From positions 1 through 36,938 of the forward strand of contig JACPEP010000009.1 of the NCBI GenBank assembly GCA_016183425.1: a DNA stretch of 36,938 nucleotides, read 5' to 3'. Positions within the stretch are counted from its first letter, which is position 1, and the number at the start of each line of letters is the position of its first letter. This document shows, piece after piece, positions 657 to 33,516 of the stretch. The notes under the pieces were generated by a model. That model was given only the letters and a program-made list of their open reading frames with translations. It ran no database searches and was not told the DNA's origin. The position numbers were made by a program, and so were the translations under genes. Source of the DNA: Chloroflexota bacterium. Lineage in GTDB: Bacteria > Chloroflexota > Dehalococcoidia > JACPEP01.

Positions 657-711
657 AGCATGATAAAAGAAGAAAGTGTTTCATGTCCTGAGGCGAAAAG
701 GGGGAGTCGTG

Positions 712-3700
712 ATGAGCGATCAGAGTTGTAGGCAAGGCAAAGAGTGGGGAGGGGCGGTGGTATGGCTCCTGATGACAGCGGCCCTGGTTTCGGCGCTGCT
801 GTGGGGGACCAGCTTCATCGTCAAAGGGGGAAGTAGCGCGGCCGCCGCCAGTCAGGTGCCCCTGGAGGGTGGTATAAGTACCCGCGCCTCGGTTCTTCCC
901 GTGGTGGGCACCAGCGTCGTTATCACGCCCACTCCCCAGACCATAGCCACTGGCGAGAGTGCTCAAGTAGACATCCAGATTCAGAACGGCGTTAACCTCT
1001 ACGCCGCCGAGGTGGATGTGCGCTTCAACCCGGCGGTTCTGGAGGTTCAGGACTCCGTTCCTCTTTCCCCCGGAATCAACATCCAGCCCGGGACTTTTCT
1101 TAACCCCGCCTCAGGTTTCGTGGTGACCAACACCGCCAACAACGTTTCGGGCACCATTAAGTACGCCGTCACCCTCCTCAACCCCGCCCCGGGGGTCACG
1201 GGCACCGGCACCCTGGCCCGAGTCACCTTCAGCGGCAAAACGCCCGGCACCAGCCCCGTGACCATCACCTCTGCCCTGCTGGCCAACCGGGATGGCGACC
1301 CCGTCGCCAACACCACCCAAAATGGCACGATAACCGTCACTGAGATAGTGGGCAACGTGGACGTCCTGCTGACGCCGTGCCTCACCGACACCGGCAAGTC
1401 TCCCCGCCACCGAGTAGGCGAGATATTCACCGAAACAGTGCGTATCAAGCCCATAACTAATCAGCAGGTCAGCGGCGTGGACGCCTTCCTGGACTTTGAA
1501 CCTTCCATTAAAGAGGTACTGGGCCTCACCGATGGCGGGACGCTGGGCGTCACCTTCGGCACCAACGGCTACAACAACACTCTGGGCGTCATCACCTACG
1601 GCGCCGCCACCTTCTCCAGCTTTCCCACCGGCGCCTTTGACCTGGTGCACATCCGCTTCCGGGCCAAGTCCGATAGCACCGGCTCTCCCGTTTCTTTCTC
1701 CACCGCCGAGGGACGCCTGACCAGGGTGGACAACCTGGGAACCGACGTCACTCGCTTCCGCCGCGGCTGCCTCAACGACATCGTTTTCGATGTGCCTATC
1801 ATCGTTGATCCACCCCTCAAAGACGCTATGGTGGGCCAGGTGTTCACCACCGCCGTCGTCGTCAACCAGTCGACGGGGGTAACGGTGAACGGCGTGGACG
1901 TTTTCATCGACTATGACCCCACCAAAATAAGGGCGGAAGTGATCACCGACGGTGGGGTGTTGGATGTCGTTTTCGGCACCAACGGCTTCAATAACAGCGT
2001 GGGCGTCATCACCTACAGCGCCGCCACCTTTAGCCGGGTCATCACCAGACCCTTCACCGCCTTTACCATCCGATGGCGGGCCAGCGGCGACACCATGTCC
2101 AGCACCACCCCCATCGCCTTCTCTTTCGTCCCCGGACGAAAGACCAACGTCATCTACAACGAAGCTACCATTGCTGGAGAGCATAGGGACGGGGCAGCCC
2201 ACGTCACCTATGACGTTCCCGTGATCCTTACTTCCAGCGTCCCCACCGCCTTCATCGGCGTGCCCTACGTGGTGAGCATCGTAGTGCAACCAACTACCCC
2301 GGTATTCGTCGACCCACCGGTGGATATGGTTAACACTTACATCAACTTCAACCCCTCATATCTGAGGGTGCAGGCGATCACCCCCACGGCGGCACTGCCC
2401 ACCACCCACGTCATCACCTGGAACAACTCTACGGGCACCATCGACTTCTCGGCGGGCAATCACGTTGCCAGCAGCCGCCCCACGGATACCTTCACCGCCG
2501 CCATCGTTACCTTCGATCCGGTGACCACCACCATCACCACCACCCACCTGGGGCTGAACTTCGCCGGAGAGCGGTTCACCACCGTCATGGATCCCGATGG
2601 CAACGTCGTCCCCGGCTTCCACCAGGATTATGATGCCGCTATACAGAGCGGCGCTATGCTGGTGCTGTGGGCCCAGTTTGAGGGCACTCCGAGTTGCGCC
2701 GGCCTCATGCCCATCACCGTGTCCATCTACTACCCCGCCTACCCGACCCTGTACGCCTCCCAGGTCTTGACGCCGGTCAAGGTTGGCAAATGGGGCTACA
2801 ACGGTGCGCCCATCCTGGTTACGCCACCCTTCGCCAACTACGACATACGGGTGGACCAGCAACATAGTCTGGCCAACCGCGTCAGCAGCGTGGTGGAGGT
2901 CAGAGCGCCCACCACTATCGTGAACCTGGGCACCCTCCTCGAAGGGGATGCCGTCGGCGAGGCCGGCCCCTCCAGCGGCCAGGTGAACATCGCCGACTTC
3001 GGTAAGCTGGCGGCGGTCTACCTGCGCACGGGTACCGCCTGCGGCATCGGCAACGCCGACTTCGATGGCTCCGGCCAGGTGAACATCGCCGACTTCGGCC
3101 TCCTGGCCAAGAACTACCTGAAGACGTCGCCCCAGAGCGTGGCGCCCATAATCACCTACAGTAGCACCAGCGCCGGGGTGTTTGGCGCGGCAATGGAGAC
3201 GCCGTCAAAAAAAGCTGATGGCCGCCCGGCGGCGGCCACTCCAATTCCTCCAGCAGCGTTAGTTGCCACCAGGGGTAGCTCTGACGACGGTTTCCACGGT
3301 ACCCTGATGGCGGCACCGCCCCAGCCCCACACGGCATCGACGGTGGACATCCGCTACCTGCCTACCACCCAAACGGTGGCCACCAGCGCCGCCTTCACGG
3401 GCACGGTGCGCATCGAGCCCAACGGTCAGCAGGTAAGTGGCGCCGATACCTTCGTGGATTTCGATAGCTCGCGGTTGGAGGTAGTGGCCATCACCAATGG
3501 CAGCACCCTGGGCGTGACCTTCAGCACCAACGGCTACAACAACAGCGTGGGCGCCATCACCTACAGCGCCGCCACCTTCTCCGGATACCCCACCTCCAAC
3601 TTCACCCTGTACGATATCGCCTGGCGCTCCAAGACAGTTACCGGAACGGCGGCGGTAAACTTCTCCACCTCCGAAACCAGAAATACCACTGTCGACTATC

Positions 3701-5805
3701 TGGGCGATACCTCCATAATCAAAGACCGGATCAGCGGCACGGTGACCATCGTAGCGCCGCCCACCGCCGACTTCGTAGGCAGCCCCACCTCCGGCAAGAT
3801 ACCCTATATGGTGACCTTCACCGATACCTCCACCGGGACATCTATCAGCTCCTGGCTGTGGAGCTTCGGCGACGGGGTGACCAGCACCCTCCAGAACCCC
3901 CCCCATTCTTACAACAGCACGGGCGTTTACACCGTCAGCCTCACCGTTAGCAACGCCGGCGGCTCCAGTACCAAGACCCGGACCAGCTATATATCGGCCC
4001 AGGCCATGAACGCCGAGTTCGGCAGCAGCTCAACCCAGGGCCACACCCCCCTCACCATCTCCTTCACCGATGCCTCCACGGTGGCCCTGGGCTCCATCGC
4101 TTCCTGGTACTGGAACTTTGGCGATGGCAGCACGGCTACTACCCAGAGCCCTACCCATACTTACGGTTCGGCGGGCTACTATACCGTTACCCTGACCATC
4201 ACCGATAGCCTGGGCCTCTCCGATACGGAGGTCAAGGACTACTATATTTCGGCCCAGGCCTTACACCCCATGTTCACCGCCAGCCCCACCAGCGGCAAAG
4301 CCCCGCTCACCGTGGCTTTCACCGACACCTCTATCGCGGAGATCGGCTCCATCGTCGCGCGGTACTGGAACTTCGGGAACAGCACCAGCACCGCCCAGAA
4401 CCCCACCTTCACTTACAACAGCAACGGCATCTATACCGTCTCCCTCACCATAACAGACAACCTGGGGCTGTCCGCCATCAATACCAAGAGCAGCTACATC
4501 ACGGTTACCGCCGACGCCAACTTCATCGGCTTCCCCACCAGCGGGCGAGTGCCCCTCACCGTTCAGTTCACCGATACCACCACGGGCACAGTGAACAGTC
4601 GGCTGTGGAGCTTCGGCGACGGCGGCACCAGCACCACCCAGAACCCCAGCCATGTCTACGCCGCTAACGGCATCTTCACGGTCAGCCTCACCGTTACCGA
4701 CACCTTTGGCCTCTCCGACAAAGAGACCAAGGCCAGCTACATCTCCGTCACCCCCGACGCCGAATTTACGGCCAGTCCCACGTCCGGCCCCATACCCCTC
4801 ACCGTCCAGTTCACCAATACCACCACCTCGGGACTGTTGCCCGTCGGGTGGGACTTCGGCGACGGCGGCACCAGCACCGCCCAGAACCCCACCCATACCT
4901 ATAGCAGCAACGGGGTATTCACGGTAAGCCTGACGACTACCGACACCTTCGGCCTCTCCGACAAAGAGACCAAGACCAGCTACATCTCGGCCACCGTGGA
5001 CGCCAACTTCACCGCCGCCCCGGTATCGGGGACGGTGCCCCTCACCGTGTACTTCACGGATACCACTTCGGGCACACCCACCGGCTGGCTGTGGGACTTC
5101 GGCGACGGCTATACCAGCACCGCCCAGAGCCCTAACCACGTCTACAATAGCAGCGGCACCTTTACCGTCACCCTGACCGCCTCCGGAGCCGGCGGCGCCA
5201 ATACCGAGACCAAGACGGAACTCATCACCGCCACCGGCGTCAACCTGGTCCTTCAGTTGGCCTTCCAGGGGGGCAGCTCGGGCAGCGATCGCTACGTCAA
5301 CCCCATAAAGGTCACCCTGGCCGCCAGCCCGGCCGTCAGCTACGTGGTAACTACCACCAACACCGGTGTCCTGACCCTGTCTGGCATCCAGCCGGGCACC
5401 TACACCATCACCACCGCCGGACCCCACGCCCTGGCCAACCGCAAGACCGGCGTCGTCGTTAGCGCTCCCGCCACCACCGTGGACATGAGCACCCTCAAGG
5501 AGGGGGACGCCAACATGAGCGGCCAGGTGAACATCTCCGACTTCGGCATCCTGGCTGGCTCCTACCTCACCACGGGCAGTCCCAGCGGCTGCGTGCCCGA
5601 TTTCATCCAGTGGGCGGCTACGGGCACCTGGAGCTTCACCCGCACCGGTTTATACCAGTGCTGGGCCGACTTCAACAAGAGTGGGCAGATAAACATCTCG
5701 GACTTCGGCCTCCTGGCCGGCTCCTACCTGCAAACGGGGCCCGTGGCCGTGGGCTACGAGAGCGCCGTCAATACGGACAGTACCGCGCCTGAGGTTGTTC
5801 AATAA
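712..5805 (+). CDS. Giant surface protein: 5 cohesin-like modules, 6 PKD domains, 2 dockerins
   Basis: This 1697-aa exported protein probably acts as a cell-surface scaffold. The start at ATG 712 is chosen because GGGGGAG (700-706) lies 5 bases upstream and the N-terminus then matches the downstream paralogue. Residues about 8-30 are a hydrophobic signal/anchor. Cohesin-like beta-sandwiches lie at about 67-212, 215-359, 361-500, 501-642 and 877-1014; several carry the signature TNGYNNSVGVITYSAATF or close variants. A pre-dockerin module (648-745, HSLANR motif) and a dockerin (746-806) sit mid-protein. Six PKD domains (FGDG motifs, the third reading FGNS) occupy 1018-1508. A second pre-dockerin module (1510-1598, HALANR) and a terminal dockerin (1599-1680) follow. 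Canonical Ca-loops start at D783, D1599 and D1653, for example DANMSGQVNISD. Having cohesins and dockerins in one chain suggests self-assembly or chain extension; this is inference. No catalytic domain is visible. Confidence 0.88.
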   Translation: MSDQSCRQGKEWGGAVVWLLMTAALVSALLWGTSFIVKGGSSAAAASQVPLEGGISTRASVLPVVGTSVVITPTPQTIATGESAQVDIQIQNGVNLYAAEVDVRFNPAVLEVQDSVPLSPGINIQPGTFLNPASGFVVTNTANNVSGTIKYAVTLLNPAPGVTGTGTLARVTFSGKTPGTSPVTITSALLANRDGDPVANTTQNGTITVTEIVGNVDVLLTPCLTDTGKSPRHRVGEIFTETVRIKPITNQQVSGVDAFLDFEPSIKEVLGLTDGGTLGVTFGTNGYNNTLGVITYGAATFSSFPTGAFDLVHIRFRAKSDSTGSPVSFSTAEGRLTRVDNLGTDVTRFRRGCLNDIVFDVPIIVDPPLKDAMVGQVFTTAVVVNQSTGVTVNGVDVFIDYDPTKIRAEVITDGGVLDVVFGTNGFNNSVGVITYSAATFSRVITRPFTAFTIRWRASGDTMSSTTPIAFSFVPGRKTNVIYNEATIAGEHRDGAAHVTYDVPVILTSSVPTAFIGVPYVVSIVVQPTTPVFVDPPVDMVNTYINFNPSYLRVQAITPTAALPTTHVITWNNSTGTIDFSAGNHVASSRPTDTFTAAIVTFDPVTTTITTTHLGLNFAGERFTTVMDPDGNVVPGFHQDYDAAIQSGAMLVLWAQFEGTPSCAGLMPITVSIYYPAYPTLYASQVLTPVKVGKWGYNGAPILVTPPFANYDIRVDQQHSLANRVSSVVEVRAPTTIVNLGTLLEGDAVGEAGPSSGQVNIADFGKLAAVYLRTGTACGIGNADFDGSGQVNIADFGLLAKNYLKTSPQSVAPIITYSSTSAGVFGAAMETPSKKADGRPAAATPIPPAALVATRGSSDDGFHGTLMAAPPQPHTASTVDIRYLPTTQTVATSAAFTGTVRIEPNGQQVSGADTFVDFDSSRLEVVAITNGSTLGVTFSTNGYNNSVGAITYSAATFSGYPTSNFTLYDIAWRSKTVTGTAAVNFSTSETRNTTVDYLGDTSIIKDRISGTVTIVAPPTADFVGSPTSGKIPYMVTFTDTSTGTSISSWLWSFGDGVTSTLQNPPHSYNSTGVYTVSLTVSNAGGSSTKTRTSYISAQAMNAEFGSSSTQGHTPLTISFTDASTVALGSIASWYWNFGDGSTATTQSPTHTYGSAGYYTVTLTITDSLGLSDTEVKDYYISAQALHPMFTASPTSGKAPLTVAFTDTSIAEIGSIVARYWNFGNSTSTAQNPTFTYNSNGIYTVSLTITDNLGLSAINTKSSYITVTADANFIGFPTSGRVPLTVQFTDTTTGTVNSRLWSFGDGGTSTTQNPSHVYAANGIFTVSLTVTDTFGLSDKETKASYISVTPDAEFTASPTSGPIPLTVQFTNTTTSGLLPVGWDFGDGGTSTAQNPTHTYSSNGVFTVSLTTTDTFGLSDKETKTSYISATVDANFTAAPVSGTVPLTVYFTDTTSGTPTGWLWDFGDGYTSTAQSPNHVYNSSGTFTVTLTASGAGGANTETKTELITATGVNLVLQLAFQGGSSGSDRYVNPIKVTLAASPAVSYVVTTTNTGVLTLSGIQPGTYTITTAGPHALANRKTGVVVSAPATTVDMSTLKEGDANMSGQVNISDFGILAGSYLTTGSPSGCVPDFIQWAATGTWSFTRTGLYQCWADFNKSGQINISDFGLLAGSYLQTGPVAVGYESAVNTDSTAPEVVQ

Positions 5806-6148: not shown

Positions 6149-8872
6149 ATGAGTGATCACGGTCATCGACAAAGTAAAGAGTGGGGAGGGGCGGTGGTGT
6201 GGCTCCTGATGACGGCGGCCGTAGTTTCGGCGCTGCTGTGGGGGACCAGCTTCCTCATCAAGGGGGGTGACGGAACGGCGGCCGCCGCCGGTCAGGCTCC
6301 CCGGGAAGAGGCGGTGGCCGCCAAGACGGCCAGCATCCTGCCCGCTGTTCCCCTTCAGGCACCCAACACGGTAGACCTGAAGATCCTGCCCTCTCCCTAC
6401 ACCGCCGCGGTGAGCAATACCTTTGAGATGCGCATTCAGGTTGAGCCAATGACGAAGGTGGCCGGAGTAGATGCCTTCATCGACTTCAACCCCAACTTCG
6501 TCCAGATTCAAGCCATAACCGACGGTGGGACGCTGGGGGTAACCTTCGGCACCAACGGCTTCAACAATAGCGTAGGCGTCATTTCCTACAGCGCCTCCAC
6601 TTTCAGCGGTTTCCCGACCACGGTATTTACCCTGGCCAGACTGGCCGTCCATGTCATCACCGCCACGCCACCCGGAGGCACCAATCTCACCTTCTCCACC
6701 GCCGAGGGCCGCGTAACCCAGATAATAGGGGGTGAAAGTGTTGCCGACAATGTTACGGGTAATCTTATCAGCGGCACCATCAACGCCTACATTACCCCGA
6801 CTGCCAGCTTCGAGCCGTCGGCAGCCATCACGGGGACAGTGCCCCGGACGGTAGCCTTCACGGATACCTCCCAGTTCAACCCCACTAGCTGGCTGTGGAG
6901 CTTCGGAGACGGCGGCACCAGCACTTCCCAGAACCCCACCCGCACCTATACCACTAAGGGCAACTACACCGTGACCCTCACTGCCACCAACGTGGCCGGA
7001 AGCAGCGTGTTCAGCCGCACCAATCTGGTCAACCTCTACAACCCGGTGACGGCTACCAAGACCGCCTCACCGCTGACGAGCACCGTGCCTATGACGGTGG
7101 TCTTCACCGATATCTCCACCGGCGATGTGGCCTCCCGGCTGTGGAGCTTCGGCGATGGGGTGACCAGCACCCTCCAAAACCCCACCCATACCTACGCCGC
7201 CAAGGGAGTCTACACCGTGACCCTGGCCGTGAACGGCCTGGGCGGCGACTCCAGCACCGACACCAACATAGAGTTCATCCACGCCTACAACCCGGTGGTG
7301 GCCGACAAGACCGCTTCGCCTCTGACCGGCACGGTGCCCTTGACGGTGGTCTTCACCGACCTCTCCACCGGCGATGTGGCCTCCCGGCTGTGGAGCTTCG
7401 GCGACGGGGTGACCAGCACTCTCCAGAACCCCACCCACACCTACACCTCCAGGGGAACCTACACCGTGACCTTGATGGTGAACGGTTTGGGCGGCGACCC
7501 CAGCACCGATACCAACACGAACTACATCCACGCCTACAATCCGGTGACGGCTGGCCTCACCGGCACACCTCTTACCGGCGTGGTGCCTCTCAACGTCACT
7601 TTCACCGACGCCTCCACCGGCGATGTGGCTTCTCGACTATGGGGCTTCGGAGACGGCGACACCAGCACGGCTCAGAACCCCACCCACATTTACACCACAG
7701 TGAGTTTCTTTGACGTGTTTCTGACGGTGGACGGCCTGGGCGGAGACAGAAATACCCTGACGCGCACCGCCTACATTAGGGGCCTATCGCCCCTCTTCGC
7801 CAACTTCGTTGGCGTTCCGGTGACCGGCGGCGTCCCCTTGACGGTGGCCTTTACCGATACCACCACGGGCACCGAGGGGCACGGCGCCCTTACGTATGCG
7901 TGGAACCTGGGAGATGGCGCAACCAGCGCTCTTCAGAACCCCACCCACACCTACCAGGCGGGCGGCATCTACACCGTGTCCCTGATGGTGACCAGTACCT
8001 ACGACGCCAAGACCGCGGTGAAGGGGAGCTACATCACCGCCGTGGGCAACCCCATCGCCAACTTTACCGCCAGCCCCATCACGGGCAACATACCCCTCAC
8101 CGTCTACTTCACCGATACCTCCCAGGGCGATATCCTTAGCCAGTCCTGGGATTTCGGCGACGGCGGCGGCAGCGCGGCTCAGAACCCCAGCCACGTTTAC
8201 TCCAACATCGGTAGCTTCACCGTCACCCACGTCGTGACCGGGCCCTTCGGCGCCAACGTTATCGTTAGGACGGACTACATCACCACCACCGGGGCCGACA
8301 TCTTCGGCCAGATAGTCCTGGACGGCAGCCTGCGGCCCGCCAGCGGCTGGGCGATACCTCTTCTCGTGACCCTGACCGCCAGCCCAGTACAGACCTACAT
8401 CGTGACCACCACTACCAAGGTGGACAGCACAGCCGTCTTCACTGTACCCGACGTGGCCCCGGGCACCTACACCATGACCATAGTCGGCGCTCACAACCTG
8501 GCAAACCGAAAGCTGAGTCTGGTAGTCACACCGCCTACCACCACCGTCAACATGGGCATGCTGCGGGAGGGGAACATCAACATGGATAGCCAGGTGAACA
8601 TCGTCGACTTCGGCCTCCTGGTGAAGCACTACCTGACCTCGAGCAGCCCCGCGCACTACCTGACCTCGGTCAGCCCCGGTGGGTGCCTCTATGAGTTCCT
8701 GGACTGGGCTGCCGCGGGCGGCACTCCGTGGATAAAGACGGCGCGCACATACAACTGCTGGGCCGACCTGGATTGGAGTGGCCAGGTCAACATAGGTGAC
8801 TTCGGCCTCATGGTTAAGAGCTACCTGCGCAGTAGTCCTATTGACCTGGCGGGGCCTCGCACGGGGGAGTGA
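6149..8872 (+). CDS. Surface protein: cohesin-like module, 6 PKD domains, terminal dockerin
   Basis: This 907-aa protein is a shorter paralogue of the preceding 1697-aa one; both start MSD and share the stretch EWGGAVVWLLMTAA in the membrane segment (residues about 10-33). GGGGAGGA at 6134-6141 lies 7 bases before ATG. One cohesin-like module (about 72-217, with GVDAFIDF and TNGFNNSVGVISYSASTF) is followed by six PKD domains (218-690). PKD 2-4 are tandem copies. Next come a pre-dockerin beta module (716-805, HNLANR motif) and a dockerin (806-890). The dockerin Ca-loops read NINMDSQVNIVD and DLDWSGQVNIGD. Between the loops lies a roughly 50-residue insert with two Cys, as in the larger paralogue. 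PKD domains usually act as spacers or mediate carbohydrate or protein contact on the surface. It probably pairs with cohesins of the neighbouring anchored proteins; this is inferred. Confidence 0.87.
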   Translation: MSDHGHRQSKEWGGAVVWLLMTAAVVSALLWGTSFLIKGGDGTAAAAGQAPREEAVAAKTASILPAVPLQAPNTVDLKILPSPYTAAVSNTFEMRIQVEPMTKVAGVDAFIDFNPNFVQIQAITDGGTLGVTFGTNGFNNSVGVISYSASTFSGFPTTVFTLARLAVHVITATPPGGTNLTFSTAEGRVTQIIGGESVADNVTGNLISGTINAYITPTASFEPSAAITGTVPRTVAFTDTSQFNPTSWLWSFGDGGTSTSQNPTRTYTTKGNYTVTLTATNVAGSSVFSRTNLVNLYNPVTATKTASPLTSTVPMTVVFTDISTGDVASRLWSFGDGVTSTLQNPTHTYAAKGVYTVTLAVNGLGGDSSTDTNIEFIHAYNPVVADKTASPLTGTVPLTVVFTDLSTGDVASRLWSFGDGVTSTLQNPTHTYTSRGTYTVTLMVNGLGGDPSTDTNTNYIHAYNPVTAGLTGTPLTGVVPLNVTFTDASTGDVASRLWGFGDGDTSTAQNPTHIYTTVSFFDVFLTVDGLGGDRNTLTRTAYIRGLSPLFANFVGVPVTGGVPLTVAFTDTTTGTEGHGALTYAWNLGDGATSALQNPTHTYQAGGIYTVSLMVTSTYDAKTAVKGSYITAVGNPIANFTASPITGNIPLTVYFTDTSQGDILSQSWDFGDGGGSAAQNPSHVYSNIGSFTVTHVVTGPFGANVIVRTDYITTTGADIFGQIVLDGSLRPASGWAIPLLVTLTASPVQTYIVTTTTKVDSTAVFTVPDVAPGTYTMTIVGAHNLANRKLSLVVTPPTTTVNMGMLREGNINMDSQVNIVDFGLLVKHYLTSSSPAHYLTSVSPGGCLYEFLDWAAAGGTPWIKTARTYNCWADLDWSGQVNIGDFGLMVKSYLRSSPIDLAGPRTGE
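7037..7783 (+). repeat. Three tandem 249-bp PKD-coding repeats
   Basis: PKD domains 2, 3 and 4 of the 907-aa protein are encoded by consecutive units with an exact 249-base (83-residue) period. The word GGCGATGTGG recurs at 7121, 7370 and 7619. Units 1 and 2 are close to identical around the FGDGVTSTLQNPTHTY stretch; unit 3 has diverged more. This indicates recent in-frame duplication of domains. Such repeats can also be collapsed or expanded in assembly. Confidence 0.8.
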
Positions 8873-14351: not shown

Positions 14352-14378
14352 TTGTTCTGTCGCCGAAAGATGTATAAT
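14352..14378 (+). promoter_or_regulatory. Probable promoter of the helicase-nuclease gene
   Basis: TATAAT is at 14373-14378, preceded by a weak -35 (TTGTTC, 14352-14357) at a short 15-base spacing. The expected transcript start is near 14385, 29 bases upstream of ATG 14414 and about 59 upstream of the alternative TTG 14444. Confidence 0.5.
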
Positions 14379-14413: not shown

Positions 14414-17400
14414 ATGCACTCGAAAGCATGGAGAGCGGCCGATTTGAGTGAGAAAGTAGAGCAGACTAGCGCCCCCTTTGGTCATAGTACCAGCCGTGTT
14501 TCTGATACGGCAGAAGAACGGGTGTTTCGCGATCAAGCGGTACGGCTTTTCACTTATCTACGTGAGCTAACCCAACTCCGGTCGAAGACCATTAGAACCC
14601 TTGACCAATATGAGAAAGTGCTGTGGCTGTGTGACATACCGCGCCAACCCGGCTGCCATTCAATGGCTTGGCAGTCTGCTGAGGAAAGGCAAGGCGCGGA
14701 GACATGGGTGGAAATCCACAAGCCACCATTAAAAGCTGCACCAAGGCCACCAAAGACACTTCTGGACTGGATGGACAACCGTGAAATAGACAATTCCTCA
14801 CTCGATATGCCACCACTGCGAGAGCGGATTCCGGCAGGCGCGCCCCCCTCGGGAGAAGAAGTCACAGGTTCTGGGCAGTTTCGGGAGTTGAAAGACTGTC
14901 CTGAGGTCAAGATGCTGTGGGAGAAGTACGTTGAACAGGAGTGGTGGCCCTGGGCCGAAAAGGATCGGGAGCTTCAAAAGATCCAGAAGGTCTACACCGA
15001 CCTGTTCTCAATATATCAAAAACAGCAGCGTTTGGGCGAACAATATGAAGTGGTCCTCGGTCTGGGATGCCTCGCTTGGCGGACGCCAGAAGGACAAGAG
15101 ATAAAACGCCATCTCATCACGGCACAAACCGCTTTAACCTTTGACAGCGTACGTGGGATCATAACGGTCGGACCTGCGGGTGAGGGAGCTAAGCTGGCCC
15201 TAGAACAAGACATGGTGGAGCCGAGCCAACGTCCAAGCGCAACAGAACAACAGACTATCGAAACCACAATAACCGAAATCGGGGACGAAATATGGGACGG
15301 TACCCTCGTCAATGATGTGTTGAAGAGTTGGGTTCATGCAGTGTCGGAAAGGGGACAGTTCGACGATACACTCGAGCCTCCTTCAAGAACCGACGTAAAC
15401 CCAATAGTCCACTTGGCGCCGGCAATCATTCTGCGCAAACGCACCGAACGTAACCTGCTTCGAGTTCTCCAAAAAATCATTGACCAGCTTAGTAACGAGG
15501 AATCGCAAATACCGGTAGGCATTAAGCGTTTAACTATGATCATGGATGACACGACTCATGTGGCTCGGGAGGACGAAGATTTTGACGCTGAATCGGCGGT
15601 AGCTCAGGACATTTACTTCCCATTACCGGCCAATGAGCAGCAGATAGATATTGCCACTAAGCTATCGGCCAGGCAGGGAGTGCTAGTCGAAGGGCCGCCG
15701 GGAACGGGCAAGTCACACACCATCGCCAACTTGGTGTGTCACCTGCTTGCGACAGGAAAGCGTGTTTTAGTCACCAGTCACACCTCACGAGCTTTGAGAG
15801 TTCTGCGAGACAAGTTTCCAAAGGACGTAGCCCAGCTCTGTATCGTCCTTCTTGGAGATGATATTAACGCCATCCAAGCACTCGAATATTCGGTGCAAGG
15901 GATTACTGATCGCAACAATCGCTGGAACCCACAAGCCAATCGTACGTTAGAGGCAAACCTGGAAAAGGAACTTGACGAAGCCCGGAGGCATGAAGCGCAA
16001 ACATTAAGCAAACTCAGAGCCGTTCGAGAAGCCGAGACATACAGACACATGCCTCTCTTCGGCTCCTATAAAGGCACGGGGGCAGCTATTGCCAGCCAGC
16101 TCAGAGAGGAAGAAGCGCGTCATTCGTGGCTCTCCGTGGAACCAGAGGCAGAGCACGAGCCACCTGTTTCGGACGAGGAAGCGGTAGAGCTTCTCCAACT
16201 CCTCCGGCTAATCAGTACCAGAGGGACGGAGGAATTGGCCCTAGTGTCTTTGAAGCCAGAAGTGCTTGTTGCTCCTGACAAGTTCGCAGCGATGGTCTCG
16301 GCAGAAAAAAATGCCTATTCACGGCTTGCAGAGGCAGAACGGGAACGTAGTCACTCGGCATACCCCTTGCTGGCGAAGGCAAGGCCAGAACAACTTGGAG
16401 ACCTGTCTAACGGGCTGGCAGATTTCGTCAGGACCTGTGAGGCAGTCAGCAATCACATTCAACCCTGGGTGGCAAGGGCCGCCAAGGAGATCACTGCAGG
16501 TTTGGATGGGCGCTGGCGAGAATTGTTCAACATGACCATGAGCCACCTTGCGTTCGTTGAAGATCGCTGTCGGCAGGCATCTGAGCTTCAGATATTAGGG
16601 CTGGGGAATCGGGATCGAAGCATAGTAAGAGCCCATGCTTCCGAATTGTTACATCACTTGGAAACAGGTGGCAAGCTGGGTTTTTGGCCATTTGTTCCGA
16701 AAGTTGTGAAAGAAGGTAAGTATCTGATCAAAGAAGTCTACGTTGATGGGCGTCTATGTGACAGCCCCCAATCTTTGAAAAAGCTTATTGAATGGTTGGA
16801 GATTGCCGACCATTTGGAGGTTATAAAGGGGAACTGGTGCGAGGTTACCGAACCTCCGTCTGGAACTTTCGCCACCCAGGTTTCAGGATATTTGGATTTG
16901 TGTAAAGCGCTCGAATCGTCCCTGGGGCTACGTGACAAGGTCTTGGCCCTCAAGGAATTAATTGGTGGTATACCAGGGCTTCCTGAGCCGACCTGGCACA
17001 CGGTCCAAGATCTAAAGTCTTTGCAGAGAGCCACTAAGGCGGCCATGCTTGAGAAGGAACTCGAGCGAGCCCGAAAGCCATTCGAAGATTTGGAGAATAT
17101 CGTGCGGCCAGTAGCATTAAGTCCCCAAGCTCACCCAGCGAACAGAGAAGTCCTCGAATCCGTTGCTCAACGGGACGTTGACCGCTACCAAGAGGCGTAT
17201 TCTAAGCAGTGCAATCTTAAGGAGTCCAAGGAACAAGTGCGACGCCGAAACTTCCTAAGAGAACGGCTAGAGGCCTGCGCGACAGAATTGGTAAAAGAAT
17301 TGGGCTCCAGCTTTCAAGACGAAAATTGGGATAATCGGATGGCCCAATTCACCGCCGCGTGGAGTTGGCGTAGGGCTGACCGCTGGCTAAGAGAGCTTCG

Positions 17401-19732
17401 CGATTCCAATGCGCACAGACAACTCGTACTAGAGCTTGATGCGCACCGACGTCGGGTACTCGAGCTAACCAGTCAGTTGGCCGCCGAAAAAGCCTGGGGG
17501 CATGTTTTTCACAGACTGGACGAAGAGCAACGCCAGCACCTCGTGGCTTGGACAATGGCTATCAAGCGCATCGGCAAGGATAAGGGGAAATATGCCAGCA
17601 TGCACCGCAGGGCGGCTCGCGATCACATGGAAAAATGCCGCTCTGCAATTCCAGCTTGGATCATGCCAATTTATCGGGTAGCAGAATCGATCAATCCAGT
17701 CACAGATGCATTCGATGTAGTTATCATTGACGAAGCCAGTCAGTCCGGTCCCGAAGCTCTCTTTCTCCAATATCTTGCAAAGAAAATCATCGTAGTTGGT
17801 GACGATAAACAGATCAGTCCAGATAATATCGGCATCGTCCGTGAGAACGTGGAACTTCTGAGGCAGAAGTATATCCCAGACTTACCACATAGTGATGCCT
17901 TGGGTTCCGACAACAGCTTCTTCGATCAAGCCAAGATTCGCTATGGAGGAAGAGTCCGATTGCGAGAACACTTCCGATGCATGCCTGAAATCATACAGTT
18001 TTCTAACAATCTCTGTTACGGCACGGAACCTTTGGAGCCATTGAGGCAGTACGGCGCAGATCGTCTAGAGCCGGTCATAGTGCGCCCCATTATTGATGGG
18101 TACCAGAGAGGCAGTAGCGGTAGAATAGAGAACCCACCGGAGGCTGAAGCGGTAGCCGACGAGATTAAGCGTTGCTGTCAGGACCCTGCATACAATGGCA
18201 AGTCGATGGGGGTGATTAGTCTTCTAGGAGAAGCCCAAGCAAACCTGATCCATAAGCTGCTTCTGGAAAGGATTGGACCCCAAGAGGTTGAAAAGAGAAG
18301 CCTCGTATGTGGGGATTCTTATGCTTTTCAAGGAGATGAGCGCGATGTAATGTTTCTAAGTCTTGTTTCGGCTCCTGGTGAAGGTCATCGAATCGGGACT
18401 CTGACCAGCGACCGAGACAAGAGACGGTTCAACGTAGCTGTGAGCCGTGCGCGGGACCAATTGTGGCTGTTCCATACCGCCACTCTAAATGATTTGAGCC
18501 ACGATTGTCTGCGCTATCAACTCCTAGATTACTGCCTAAACCCTAAAGTTGAGCCGCGTGTGTTGGAGGGCATAGACACCGATGCGCTCCGCAACGCAGC
18601 CAACAACTCATCCCGCAGACAGGACGCCCAATCACGCCCCTTTGAAAGCTGGTTCGAGGTCGACGTTTTCCTGAAGATCTTGGAGCGAGGCTATCGGGTA
18701 ATCCCACAATTCGAGGTTGCGGGACGGCGGATTGATCTCGTGGTCGTGGGGATGCAGGGCCGGCTTGCAGTTGAATGCGATGGTGATGAGTGGCACGGTG
18801 CTGAAAAATACGATGAGGATATGGCACGCCAGAGGATACTAGAGCGATGCGGCTGGACATTCTGGCGCGTTCTGGGTAGCGAATTTTACCGAAACCAGGA
18901 TCAGGCACTGGAAAGCCTGTGGGAAACTCTGGACAAGCATGAAATTTATCCGCATGGCAGAACTCGGCGTGCCCACTCTGGCAGCGTCCCCACAGAGATC
19001 ATCCAAACATACGTAATATCTCCTGACGGAGGAGAAGATGCACTAACATCTGCACCCGGCGAGACGGAAGCTAACGAAGAACACCAGCTAGGATTCGAGG
19101 GCATCGAAGCCAATAGTAGCGTCGGTTCCGGCGAAGTGGCAATGCCTGCACGTCAAGTGTTAAAGCTGCAGCGAGGGGCTGAAACTCGACGCGAGAATGG
19201 CGTTGGTAAAGGCTCCGCAAACTTCTTCCTAGCCCCGTACCGGGGCTGGATCGCTAAGCCTCTACCCGATCCGCGCACAGCTTCCACAAATGAGGTAGAG
19301 CTTGCTCTCGTTGAGATCATTGATGCAGAGGGGCCCATGCCGTGCCACCGGGCCTATCACATATACGCAAAGGCGGCTGGCATTCACAAGGTAGGTCGTC
19401 AGATTCGCGATTTATTCAACCGAGCTATCTCGCAGGCAGTCGGCTATAAACTCCTTGAAGAAGCCCACGAATACGGAACTAATGACCAGATGAACAAGGT
19501 TGTGCGGAAGTATGGCACGTCGCCAGTAGTGCCTCGGCTCCGCAGCGACAGGCAACTTGATGAGATTCCCCCCTCTGAGTTAGCCGCAGTGATGAACTGG
19601 TTGCTGCAACAAAAGCCAGGCTTTGATGATGAAGAGCTGCTTCGGCGCATCTTGGACATCTACGAAGTGGAGCGCCTGACGTCGGGCATTCGGGAAAGAC
19701 TGTTACAAGTTAAGAGACGACTCTCGATTTAG
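14414..19732 (+). CDS. Large SF1 helicase with C-terminal Vsr/DUF559-like nuclease (defence-type)
   Basis: This is a 1772-aa multidomain protein. After an unassigned N-terminal region of about 400 residues comes an SF1 (Upf1/DNA2-like) helicase. Its Walker A is GPPGTGKS (427-434), Walker B DEAS (1106-1109), then GDDKQ (about 1131), FQGDE and NVAVSRARDQLW (about 1310-1355). A long coiled-coil-rich insertion separates Walker A from Walker B. Residues about 1410-1510 form a PD-(D/E)xK domain of the Vsr/DUF559/MTES_1575 kind, with IDLVVVG (D1441) and VECDGDEWHG (E1454). The C-terminal 170 residues resemble DUF3320 of large helicase proteins. Similar helicase-Vsr architectures occur among antiphage proteins (Hhe-like); defence is inferred, and no HEPN motif was recognised. 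ATG 14414 has GGAG directly abutting it. TTG 14444 has GGAGAG at 8-base spacing and may be the true start. GC is lower than in flanking genes. Confidence 0.85.
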   Translation: MHSKAWRAADLSEKVEQTSAPFGHSTSRVSDTAEERVFRDQAVRLFTYLRELTQLRSKTIRTLDQYEKVLWLCDIPRQPGCHSMAWQSAEERQGAETWVEIHKPPLKAAPRPPKTLLDWMDNREIDNSSLDMPPLRERIPAGAPPSGEEVTGSGQFRELKDCPEVKMLWEKYVEQEWWPWAEKDRELQKIQKVYTDLFSIYQKQQRLGEQYEVVLGLGCLAWRTPEGQEIKRHLITAQTALTFDSVRGIITVGPAGEGAKLALEQDMVEPSQRPSATEQQTIETTITEIGDEIWDGTLVNDVLKSWVHAVSERGQFDDTLEPPSRTDVNPIVHLAPAIILRKRTERNLLRVLQKIIDQLSNEESQIPVGIKRLTMIMDDTTHVAREDEDFDAESAVAQDIYFPLPANEQQIDIATKLSARQGVLVEGPPGTGKSHTIANLVCHLLATGKRVLVTSHTSRALRVLRDKFPKDVAQLCIVLLGDDINAIQALEYSVQGITDRNNRWNPQANRTLEANLEKELDEARRHEAQTLSKLRAVREAETYRHMPLFGSYKGTGAAIASQLREEEARHSWLSVEPEAEHEPPVSDEEAVELLQLLRLISTRGTEELALVSLKPEVLVAPDKFAAMVSAEKNAYSRLAEAERERSHSAYPLLAKARPEQLGDLSNGLADFVRTCEAVSNHIQPWVARAAKEITAGLDGRWRELFNMTMSHLAFVEDRCRQASELQILGLGNRDRSIVRAHASELLHHLETGGKLGFWPFVPKVVKEGKYLIKEVYVDGRLCDSPQSLKKLIEWLEIADHLEVIKGNWCEVTEPPSGTFATQVSGYLDLCKALESSLGLRDKVLALKELIGGIPGLPEPTWHTVQDLKSLQRATKAAMLEKELERARKPFEDLENIVRPVALSPQAHPANREVLESVAQRDVDRYQEAYSKQCNLKESKEQVRRRNFLRERLEACATELVKELGSSFQDENWDNRMAQFTAAWSWRRADRWLRELRDSNAHRQLVLELDAHRRRVLELTSQLAAEKAWGHVFHRLDEEQRQHLVAWTMAIKRIGKDKGKYASMHRRAARDHMEKCRSAIPAWIMPIYRVAESINPVTDAFDVVIIDEASQSGPEALFLQYLAKKIIVVGDDKQISPDNIGIVRENVELLRQKYIPDLPHSDALGSDNSFFDQAKIRYGGRVRLREHFRCMPEIIQFSNNLCYGTEPLEPLRQYGADRLEPVIVRPIIDGYQRGSSGRIENPPEAEAVADEIKRCCQDPAYNGKSMGVISLLGEAQANLIHKLLLERIGPQEVEKRSLVCGDSYAFQGDERDVMFLSLVSAPGEGHRIGTLTSDRDKRRFNVAVSRARDQLWLFHTATLNDLSHDCLRYQLLDYCLNPKVEPRVLEGIDTDALRNAANNSSRRQDAQSRPFESWFEVDVFLKILERGYRVIPQFEVAGRRIDLVVVGMQGRLAVECDGDEWHGAEKYDEDMARQRILERCGWTFWRVLGSEFYRNQDQALESLWETLDKHEIYPHGRTRRAHSGSVPTEIIQTYVISPDGGEDALTSAPGETEANEEHQLGFEGIEANSSVGSGEVAMPARQVLKLQRGAETRRENGVGKGSANFFLAPYRGWIAKPLPDPRTASTNEVELALVEIIDAEGPMPCHRAYHIYAKAAGIHKVGRQIRDLFNRAISQAVGYKLLEEAHEYGTNDQMNKVVRKYGTSPVVPRLRSDRQLDEIPPSELAAVMNWLLQQKPGFDDEELLRRILDIYEVERLTSGIRERLLQVKRRLSI

Positions 19733-31902: not shown

Positions 31903-33516
31903 ATGGGCTCTCTTTATCTTAACAGGCTCTCAGCCGGAGAGCACGAAATTTTGATTGGGAAACTCCATCAGACGCAGAAGAGCAAGTGTTTTATCTGCGA
32001 AGAACTGATAGACCTTGTTCTACACAAAGATTCGATAGACATAGATCATATGATACCAACAAAACTTGGCGGGAAAGATGACCCATCTAACTTCGCTCTA
32101 ACTCATTCGAGTTGCAATCGTTCCAAGCAGGCGGCAAACTTAGAAGTTGCACGTATCCTTCAAAGATTCACAAAGCTTAAGGAACAGGTGGGGAAGGAGA
32201 ACCGCAATCCCAATCTGGACGACGTTCTTCGGCTGTATGGCGGCTCAAAATTCGAACTGCCGGTCATGCCTGCCTCAGACGCAATCCGGTGCTCGCTTCC
32301 TGATCTTGGAAACAACGACGTCTCTGTTCTGCCGCTATACACTGATGAATTAAGCGGATTCAAATACTTTTTCGTAAAACTGCCGATCGAGTACCTCCAT
32401 CACGACGAGAAGATAAACCCACGGTCCATCGGGCAGAATATCTCCAAACTGGTTGAGGAGTTTTACCATAAACGCCCACAACTTCACATCTCACTTGGCT
32501 GGATAACGCTTGATCAAAATCTTCGCTCTCCAATCCGTATCTTCGACGGCCAACACAAGGCAGCCGCCCAAGTTCTGCTGGGAATTAGAGAATTACCGGT
32601 TCGGGTGTTTGTGAACCCGGATATTGACACGCTGTTAACAGCAAATACAAACGCCGGAACAATACTGCGCCAAGTGGCATTTGACAAGTCCGTCCAACGT
32701 CATTTGGGAAGTGCTCTGTATGTTGACCGTGTAGAGAGATACAAGAAAGACCTGAATCTTAATGAGGAGGATTTCAATTTCTCGGAGAAGGACCTCGTGA
32801 GATTCTTTAAGGGTGAGTCTCGCGAGATGAAGCGCTATATTCTTGATGCAGTCAGGGATTCTATTACCCACAACCCCGAAAATAAGCTGAAGGACTACAT
32901 CGATTTTGGAGGCCGCGGAAAAGAACGCCCGCTCTCATATTCAACGGTGGAGAAGACCTTCTATTCGTTCTTCATCTACCAAGACGTTTTGGAAACCGCT
33001 ATCAACTACCAACTCGAAAACGGAGAAAACCCTCGTGAGATGGAGAAGGAGCAGATTCTTGAATTGATGAATATCATCGCCGAGGAAATCTACATTGGCA
33101 AATATGACAGTGATATTGGCACCTATCGCATAGAATACAAGTTACAGGCAGGCGAACTATTGCCTCTTGAACACGTGCGAGCTTTCCGTATGAGTAGGGA
33201 GGAAATCCTTTGGAACTGGCTAAAGTACGTGTCTCAGATCATTCGCAACTTCTTTATTATGCAGGGTGTCCCAATTGAGGAGAGCAAACTGTTTCAATAC
33301 AAGTTCCCGGTGCCTCTCTGGGAAAGGATCAGAACGTTTGTCGGAAACTTCAACTGCTTGTCTTTGTGGTCGAACACACAACTATCAACGACCGTTTTTG
33401 GTGGCAAACAAAATTATGAATACTGGCAACACATATTTGAGAAAGGAAAAACGCCGCAAGGTCAGCAGATACTCGCAGAACCGATCAACCTGATCGAGCT
33501 GATGAAGACGAGATGA
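31903..33516 (+). CDS. HNH nuclease fused to a DGQHR (DndB/ParB-like) domain
   Basis: A 537-aa protein with an N-terminal HNH zinc-finger nuclease: C29-x2-C32, D48-H49, N63, H68 and C71-N72 (about residues 20-80). A DGQHR-type domain follows, with the motif FDGQHK at 214-219 (about 130-330). The C-terminal part is helical and unassigned. DGQHR domains occur in DndB-type proteins of phosphorothioate systems. DGQQR-plus-HNH proteins (GmrSD, SspE, DUF262-DUF1524) cut modified or phosphorothioate-linked DNA; here the domain order is reversed. A restriction-like role is inferred. AAGGGGG lies about 10 bases before ATG. GC is clearly below the flanking purine genes (23 of 60 bases at 33061-33120). 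No dnd, ssp or methylase genes are adjacent, so it looks like a solitary acquired gene. Confidence 0.82.

Follow-up and report, generated by a model that had tools for sequence, protein, structure and literature searches.

A large helicase-nuclease encoded by a Chloroflexota bacterium is a probable stand-alone anti-phage protein

Gene, domains and relation to described systems

Hhe (DUF4011-helicase-Vsr, NCBIfam NF042953) is built of a DUF4011-type N-terminus, an SF1 helicase with a large insertion, an MTES_1575/Vsr nuclease and DUF3320, in this order. MTES_1575 from Microbacterium testaceum likewise unites an SF-I helicase, a Vsr REase and two wHTH domains overlapping DUF3320 in one protein, together with HEPN and transglutaminase domains (PMC3710099). 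The CnuH helicases of the CoCoNuT systems possess a UPF1-like core, in which Walker A is followed by a large insertion of helices that include coiled coils, and in type III-B also a fused Vsr-like nuclease; CoCoNuTs include McrB/McrC-type partners, and the authors argue for RNA as the target (PMC11090510). ProA (NF058533) and the PADLOC candidate PDC-S37 are, with Hhe, the nearest named models of the protein described here. Our literature search on ProA, PDC-S37 and DUF3320 as defence proteins returned no paper on ProA, none naming PDC-S37, and no study of the helicase-nuclease family described below.

The gene analyzed here lies in a window of 36,938 nucleotides (the whole stretch of DNA considered in this work, contig JACPEP010000009.1) from a bacterium of the Dehalococcoidia that belongs to a sparsely sampled group. 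The initial annotation described a single 1772-aa gene joining an SF1 helicase, a Vsr/DUF559-like nuclease and a DUF3320-like tail, and our ORF list indeed contains one intact reading frame of this length with an ATG start. Its features, all on the plus strand, are:

14373-14378, plus strand: TATAAT, possible -10 element, 35 bases before the ATG (direct reading of the sequence)
14414-19732, plus strand: whole helicase-nuclease gene, 1772 aa, GC 0.525, GC3 0.538 (ORF call and composition)
14519-15613, plus strand: N-terminal module, residues 36-400 (family conservation, AlphaFold2, profile-profile comparison)
15692-15715, plus strand: Walker A, residues 427-434, GPPGTGKS (motif reading; AAA_11/AAA_30 in Pfam)
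15848-17689, plus strand: all-helical insertion, residues 479-1092, about 610 residues (AlphaFold2 model)
17690-18553, plus strand: rest of the helicase core, motif II to VI, residues 1093-1380 (AAA_12 at 1168-1353; motifs)
18644-18943, plus strand: MTES_1575/Vsr-type PD-(D/E)xK nuclease, residues 1411-1510 (Pfam, motifs, family alignment)
18734-18736 and 18773-18775, plus strand: codons of D1441 and E1454, nuclease site
19211-19729, plus strand: C-terminal tail, residues 1600-1772, DUF3320-like (sub-threshold Pfam match, profile-profile comparison)

All SF1 motifs are intact: Walker A (GPPGTGKSHT, 427-436), motif II (DEAS, 1106-1109), GDDKQ (1129-1133), FQGDERD (1305-1311) and RFNVAVSRARD (1338-1348), and they are nearly invariant across the family. 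Pfam identified MTES_1575 at residues 1414-1506 (1.6e-31), AAA_12, AAA_11 and DUF559 (1.9e-5), and among the relatives of solved structure found by sequence are SMUBP-2, SEN1, UPF1 and DNA2. The two nuclease residues fall exactly where the initial annotation had placed them; in 26 aligned relatives D1441 is invariant and E1454 nearly so. In the tail, which probably comprises two winged helices, DUF3320 was matched by Pfam only below its cut-off (E 0.011, 16.2 bits against 25), but profile-profile comparison of 15 family tails with the tails of DUF4011 helicases gave E-values of 5e-10 and 3e-10, and the label "DUF3320-like" is therefore fair. The length of the tail varies across the family from 0 to more than 400 residues, which marks it as a changeable part of the protein. 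One relative (locus L022, positions 1327-1500) lacks the C-terminal tail and seems to bear an additional N-terminal winged-helix domain, which gives the impression that the DNA-binding part has moved from one end to the other. The N-terminus, helicase, nuclease and tail are conserved family-wide, which rules out a chance assembly.

The initial annotation suggested a comparison with Hhe and Mokosh. The order of parts is that of Hhe, including the SF1 helicase fused to a Vsr/MTES_1575 nuclease, but the protein scores only 142.4 bits with NF042953 against an equivalog cut-off of 2000, and its N-terminus has no Pfam DUF4011 (PF13195) match; moreover, the likeness in the tail (E 5e-10) and in the N-terminus (E 1e-4, see below) was measured against DUF4011 helicases of the same class and not against the tested Hhe. 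The layout also resembles that of ProA, the best NCBIfam match (274.7 bits over residues 383-1753), yet here too the equivalog cut-off is far higher (1500 bits) and the first 627 model positions are unmatched. Membership in Hhe and ProA was rejected on these scores. PDC-S37 is the best PADLOC match (249 bits), with nuclease and tail included; its best stretch aligns residues 868-1766 with model positions 711-1529 of 1550. The match to Mokosh components MkoC (1.6e-39) and MkoA has its best stretch confined to the helicase; unlike Mokosh, the window protein is the product of a single gene and has no PLD nuclease match in Pfam, and since the PLD-like nuclease is absent Mokosh membership was rejected as well. 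With type III-B CnuH (PMC11090510) the protein shares the plan of a UPF1-like helicase, helical coiled-coil insertion and fused Vsr-like nuclease, a likeness drawn from description and not from sequence; in contrast to the McrB/McrC-type partners of CoCoNuTs (PMC11090510), the neighbours of the window copy are metabolic, a search with PF10117 (McrC) found no match in its own genome (95% complete), and the absence of McrBC partners led us to reject CoCoNuT membership. The HEPN and transglutaminase domains of MTES_1575 (PMC3710099) are not found by Pfam in the window protein. None of the Pfam, NCBIfam or PADLOC models, in the copies that we used, describes this helicase-nuclease as a family at its own cut-off; on present evidence, we regard it as a variant of a known helicase-nuclease type and not as a new mechanism.

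The N-terminal module and the helical insertion

The N-terminal 400 residues were initially regarded as unassigned and as a potential new sensor domain. The first half of this statement holds: neither Pfam nor PADLOC, in which the N-terminal 402 residues were also searched alone, yields a match. The second half requires modification, as the module is attached to the helicase and part of it looks DUF4011-like. In 301 phylum genomes the N-terminal profile found only ORFs of 1525-1849 aa and one 332-aa fragment; occurrence in such long, helicase-sized ORFs indicates that the N-terminus, which is conserved throughout the family, moves together with the helicase instead of being an independent sensor domain, while the module may still have a sensing role. 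A Pfam scan of the N-termini of 72 relatives matched DUF4011 in one of them (1.9e-4). When the profile of the module was compared with that of 12 DUF4011 helicases from the class, a stretch of 69 columns (residues 192-260) aligned with the DUF4011 core (E 1e-4, probability 57%); three unrelated control comparisons gave E-values of 0.11-0.41 and probabilities under 1%. This suggests that part of the module is a diverged DUF4011, a remote link that is probably real.

In the AlphaFold2 model, built from 73 sequences (mean pLDDT 88, pTM 0.79), residues 36-400 form long helices and a beta region. The fold search found nothing significant: the best PDB match has an E-value of 0.69 and the best match in BFVD (viral proteins), an AAA domain protein, 4e-3. 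Yeast Upf1 (9qdq) aligns weakly over 140 residues (Z only 2.9, rmsd 6.7), and the aligned part of Upf1 is the region just ahead of its first RecA domain, where UPF1/DNA2-like helicases have a stalk and an OB-type 1B domain. Lack of significant fold matches does not, however, make the module a new fold.

Overlooked in the initial annotation was the large insertion between Walker A and motif II of the helicase. It is modelled as an all-helical body (mean pLDDT 90, pTM 0.60), in which long helices (approximately 506-542 and 998-1034) probably form an arm. Its fold search retrieved only generic long-helix proteins (SMC arms, dynein stalk, Lamassu) with Z under 10, not above the general level of helical bundles. 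DUF4011 helicases have an insertion of similar size (490-940 residues from Walker A to motif II), and profile-profile comparison detected no homology between the two (E 0.12); the insertion of CnuH lies in the same place (PMC11090510).

Locus, distribution and neighbours of relatives

The gene was correctly described as solitary. Its upstream neighbour leuS and the downstream SDR/amidohydrolase/flavin-oxidoreductase group are both on the minus strand, and it therefore constitutes its own transcription unit. The initial annotation of an own promoter follows from this layout; of the promoter itself only the perfect TATAAT is visible, for which a consensus promoter scan listed no site, and no good -35 element was found. 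The gene sits among housekeeping and catabolic genes, with no visible defence island in its own genome, and its GC3 is below the range of the other window genes (0.64-0.82), one HNH gene excepted.

We found at least 496 candidate relatives in other genomes, and the protein seems to occur in hundreds of genomes, of bacteria as well as some archaea. Within the class, close relatives sharing its N-terminus are present in 9 of 392 other genomes (10 of 393, or 2.5%, with its own) and within the phylum in 10 of 300 (11 of 301, or 3.7%, with its own). In one genus, G123 carries a relative and four other genomes (G067, G082, G134 and G145, 98-99% complete) do not. No leuS gene accompanies a relative at any other locus examined, though some of the flanks span only 1.5 kb. 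A phylum-wide repair helicase kept at one locus, which the initial annotation had named as the finding that would speak against defence, is thus not what we see, and on account of the patchy presence and the missing synteny we rejected a housekeeping role of this kind. The tree of 74 relatives scrambles the phyla (37 changes for 20 phylum labels); neighbours nearest to the window copy come from Desulfovibrio (52% identity), Thermomicrobiales, a myxococcal MAG and an Aenigmatarchaeota MAG, and as MAG bins can contain foreign contigs, little weight should be given to any one odd placement. Some relatives are located on viral contigs. Among 452 plasmid records with some match only three cover at least 80% of the protein, and the many matches on Klebsiella plasmids therefore probably belong to other helicases. 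A copy on the Deinococcus actinosclerus plasmid CP029776.1 (61236-67495) covers 97% of the protein and is apparently interrupted by an IS701-family transposase.

The 105 genes of at least 140 aa that adjoin relatives (about 40,000 aa in total) matched 133 PADLOC models at E 1e-15, and 105 control genes of nearly equal total size, drawn from remote positions in 20 of the genomes that carry relatives, matched 5. As the flanking genes were predicted with a simple ORF caller, and a single methyltransferase can be matched by many models, the figure of 133 is higher than the true number of defence genes, yet the contrast with 5 is large. Components of Mokosh, BREX, restriction systems of types I-IV, PbeA and SoFic are among the flanking genes. 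Two relatives from the same class illustrate such settings. The one in G123 (loci L200 and L201, C1:1633000-1658000) resides inside a prophage, between a phage DNA methyltransferase gene and genes for minor head, portal and terminase proteins, on the strand opposite to these genes. The one in G250 (locus L206, C1:248000-258300) has an McrC gene (PF10117, 5.5e-49) about 6 kb upstream. Beside this McrC gene lies an AAA-type gene of 805 aa, which is likely McrB, and between the pair and the relative there is a gene resembling the N-terminus of a restriction endonuclease.

Proposed action and alternative explanations

From sequence comparisons we consider it quite probable that the helicase-nuclease was acquired horizontally and defends on its own against phages (or mobile elements). 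This supports the initial annotation of a single-protein helicase-nuclease of defence type. The reading draws on the intact motor and nuclease sites, the patchy presence and scrambled tree, the low GC3 and the defence-gene company of relatives; on their prophage, McrC, plasmid and viral-contig settings; and on the nearest named models being ProA, Hhe and the candidate PDC-S37. Counted against it are the position of the window copy among housekeeping and catabolic genes and the inflated number of PADLOC matches. In such a protein the tail and the N-terminal module would hold on to invading nucleic acid, probably DNA in branched or single-stranded form, at the replication forks or ends of the invader. 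The SF1 motor of the UPF1/DNA2 type would then translocate at the expense of ATP and, with the helical arm, sense or license the substrate; the arm may serve to connect motor and nuclease or to determine the permitted substrate. Finally, the fused nuclease would cut, within the same polypeptide and without partner genes.

An SF1 helicase combined with a PD-(D/E)xK nuclease also fits repair enzymes such as Dna2. A protein serving the host in DNA repair or replication, like eukaryotic Dna2 or bacterial AddAB, would hold the same two activities in one chain, and the solved relatives listed above speak for it; such a role appears improbable to us, given that no more than a few percent of the genomes in class and phylum contain the family, that its tree mixes phyla, that relatives occur in prophage and defence-gene settings and that the GC3 is atypical. 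Less easily dismissed, though still unlikely, is defence directed at RNA, in which the motor would run on phage transcripts and the Vsr-like nuclease would act as an RNase. UPF1-like motors act on RNA too. In CnuH, to which this reading is drawn by analogy, the UPF1-like core, the helical insertion and, in type III-B, the fused Vsr-like nuclease recur (PMC11090510), but the McrC gene is missing from the genome, the DUF3320-type wHTH tail points to DNA and MTES_1575 is annotated as a restriction endonuclease fold. Because of this tail and the nuclease family, DNA seems a somewhat better candidate for the target than RNA.

The gene could also belong to mobile elements and act mainly against their rivals (plasmids, other prophages) and not for the host. 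Relatives in a prophage, on viral contigs and on plasmids, including the Deinococcus copy, fit this idea, which we hold to be doubtful; it is compatible with phage defence and not opposed to it, and most copies are on contigs not shown to be mobile. Returning to defence, we put forward only tentatively that the relatives make up a widespread, uncatalogued family, in which the N-terminal module and the 610-residue arm would be a sensing device without solved counterpart, one protein recognizing, unwinding and cutting its target. If the defence reading is true, this is a compact one-gene system that could easily be transferred to a laboratory host, and comparison with Hhe and ProA would separate the sensing parts from the killing parts.

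The only possible defence neighbour of the window copy is the HNH gene mentioned above (31903-33516, plus strand), 12 kb away. It encodes 537 aa with an N-terminal HNH nuclease (2.9e-8), its GC of 0.459 is far below that of the purine-operon genes around it, making it the second atypical gene of the window, and by eye its product shows an FDGQH motif resembling DGQHR/DndB proteins; it is possibly another acquired defence gene. At the other end of the window, two giant secreted-type proteins with many PKD-like repeats are encoded at 676-5805 and 6149-8872 (plus strand); the first contains a cohesin domain, and more cohesin-like genes follow the pair up to 11573.
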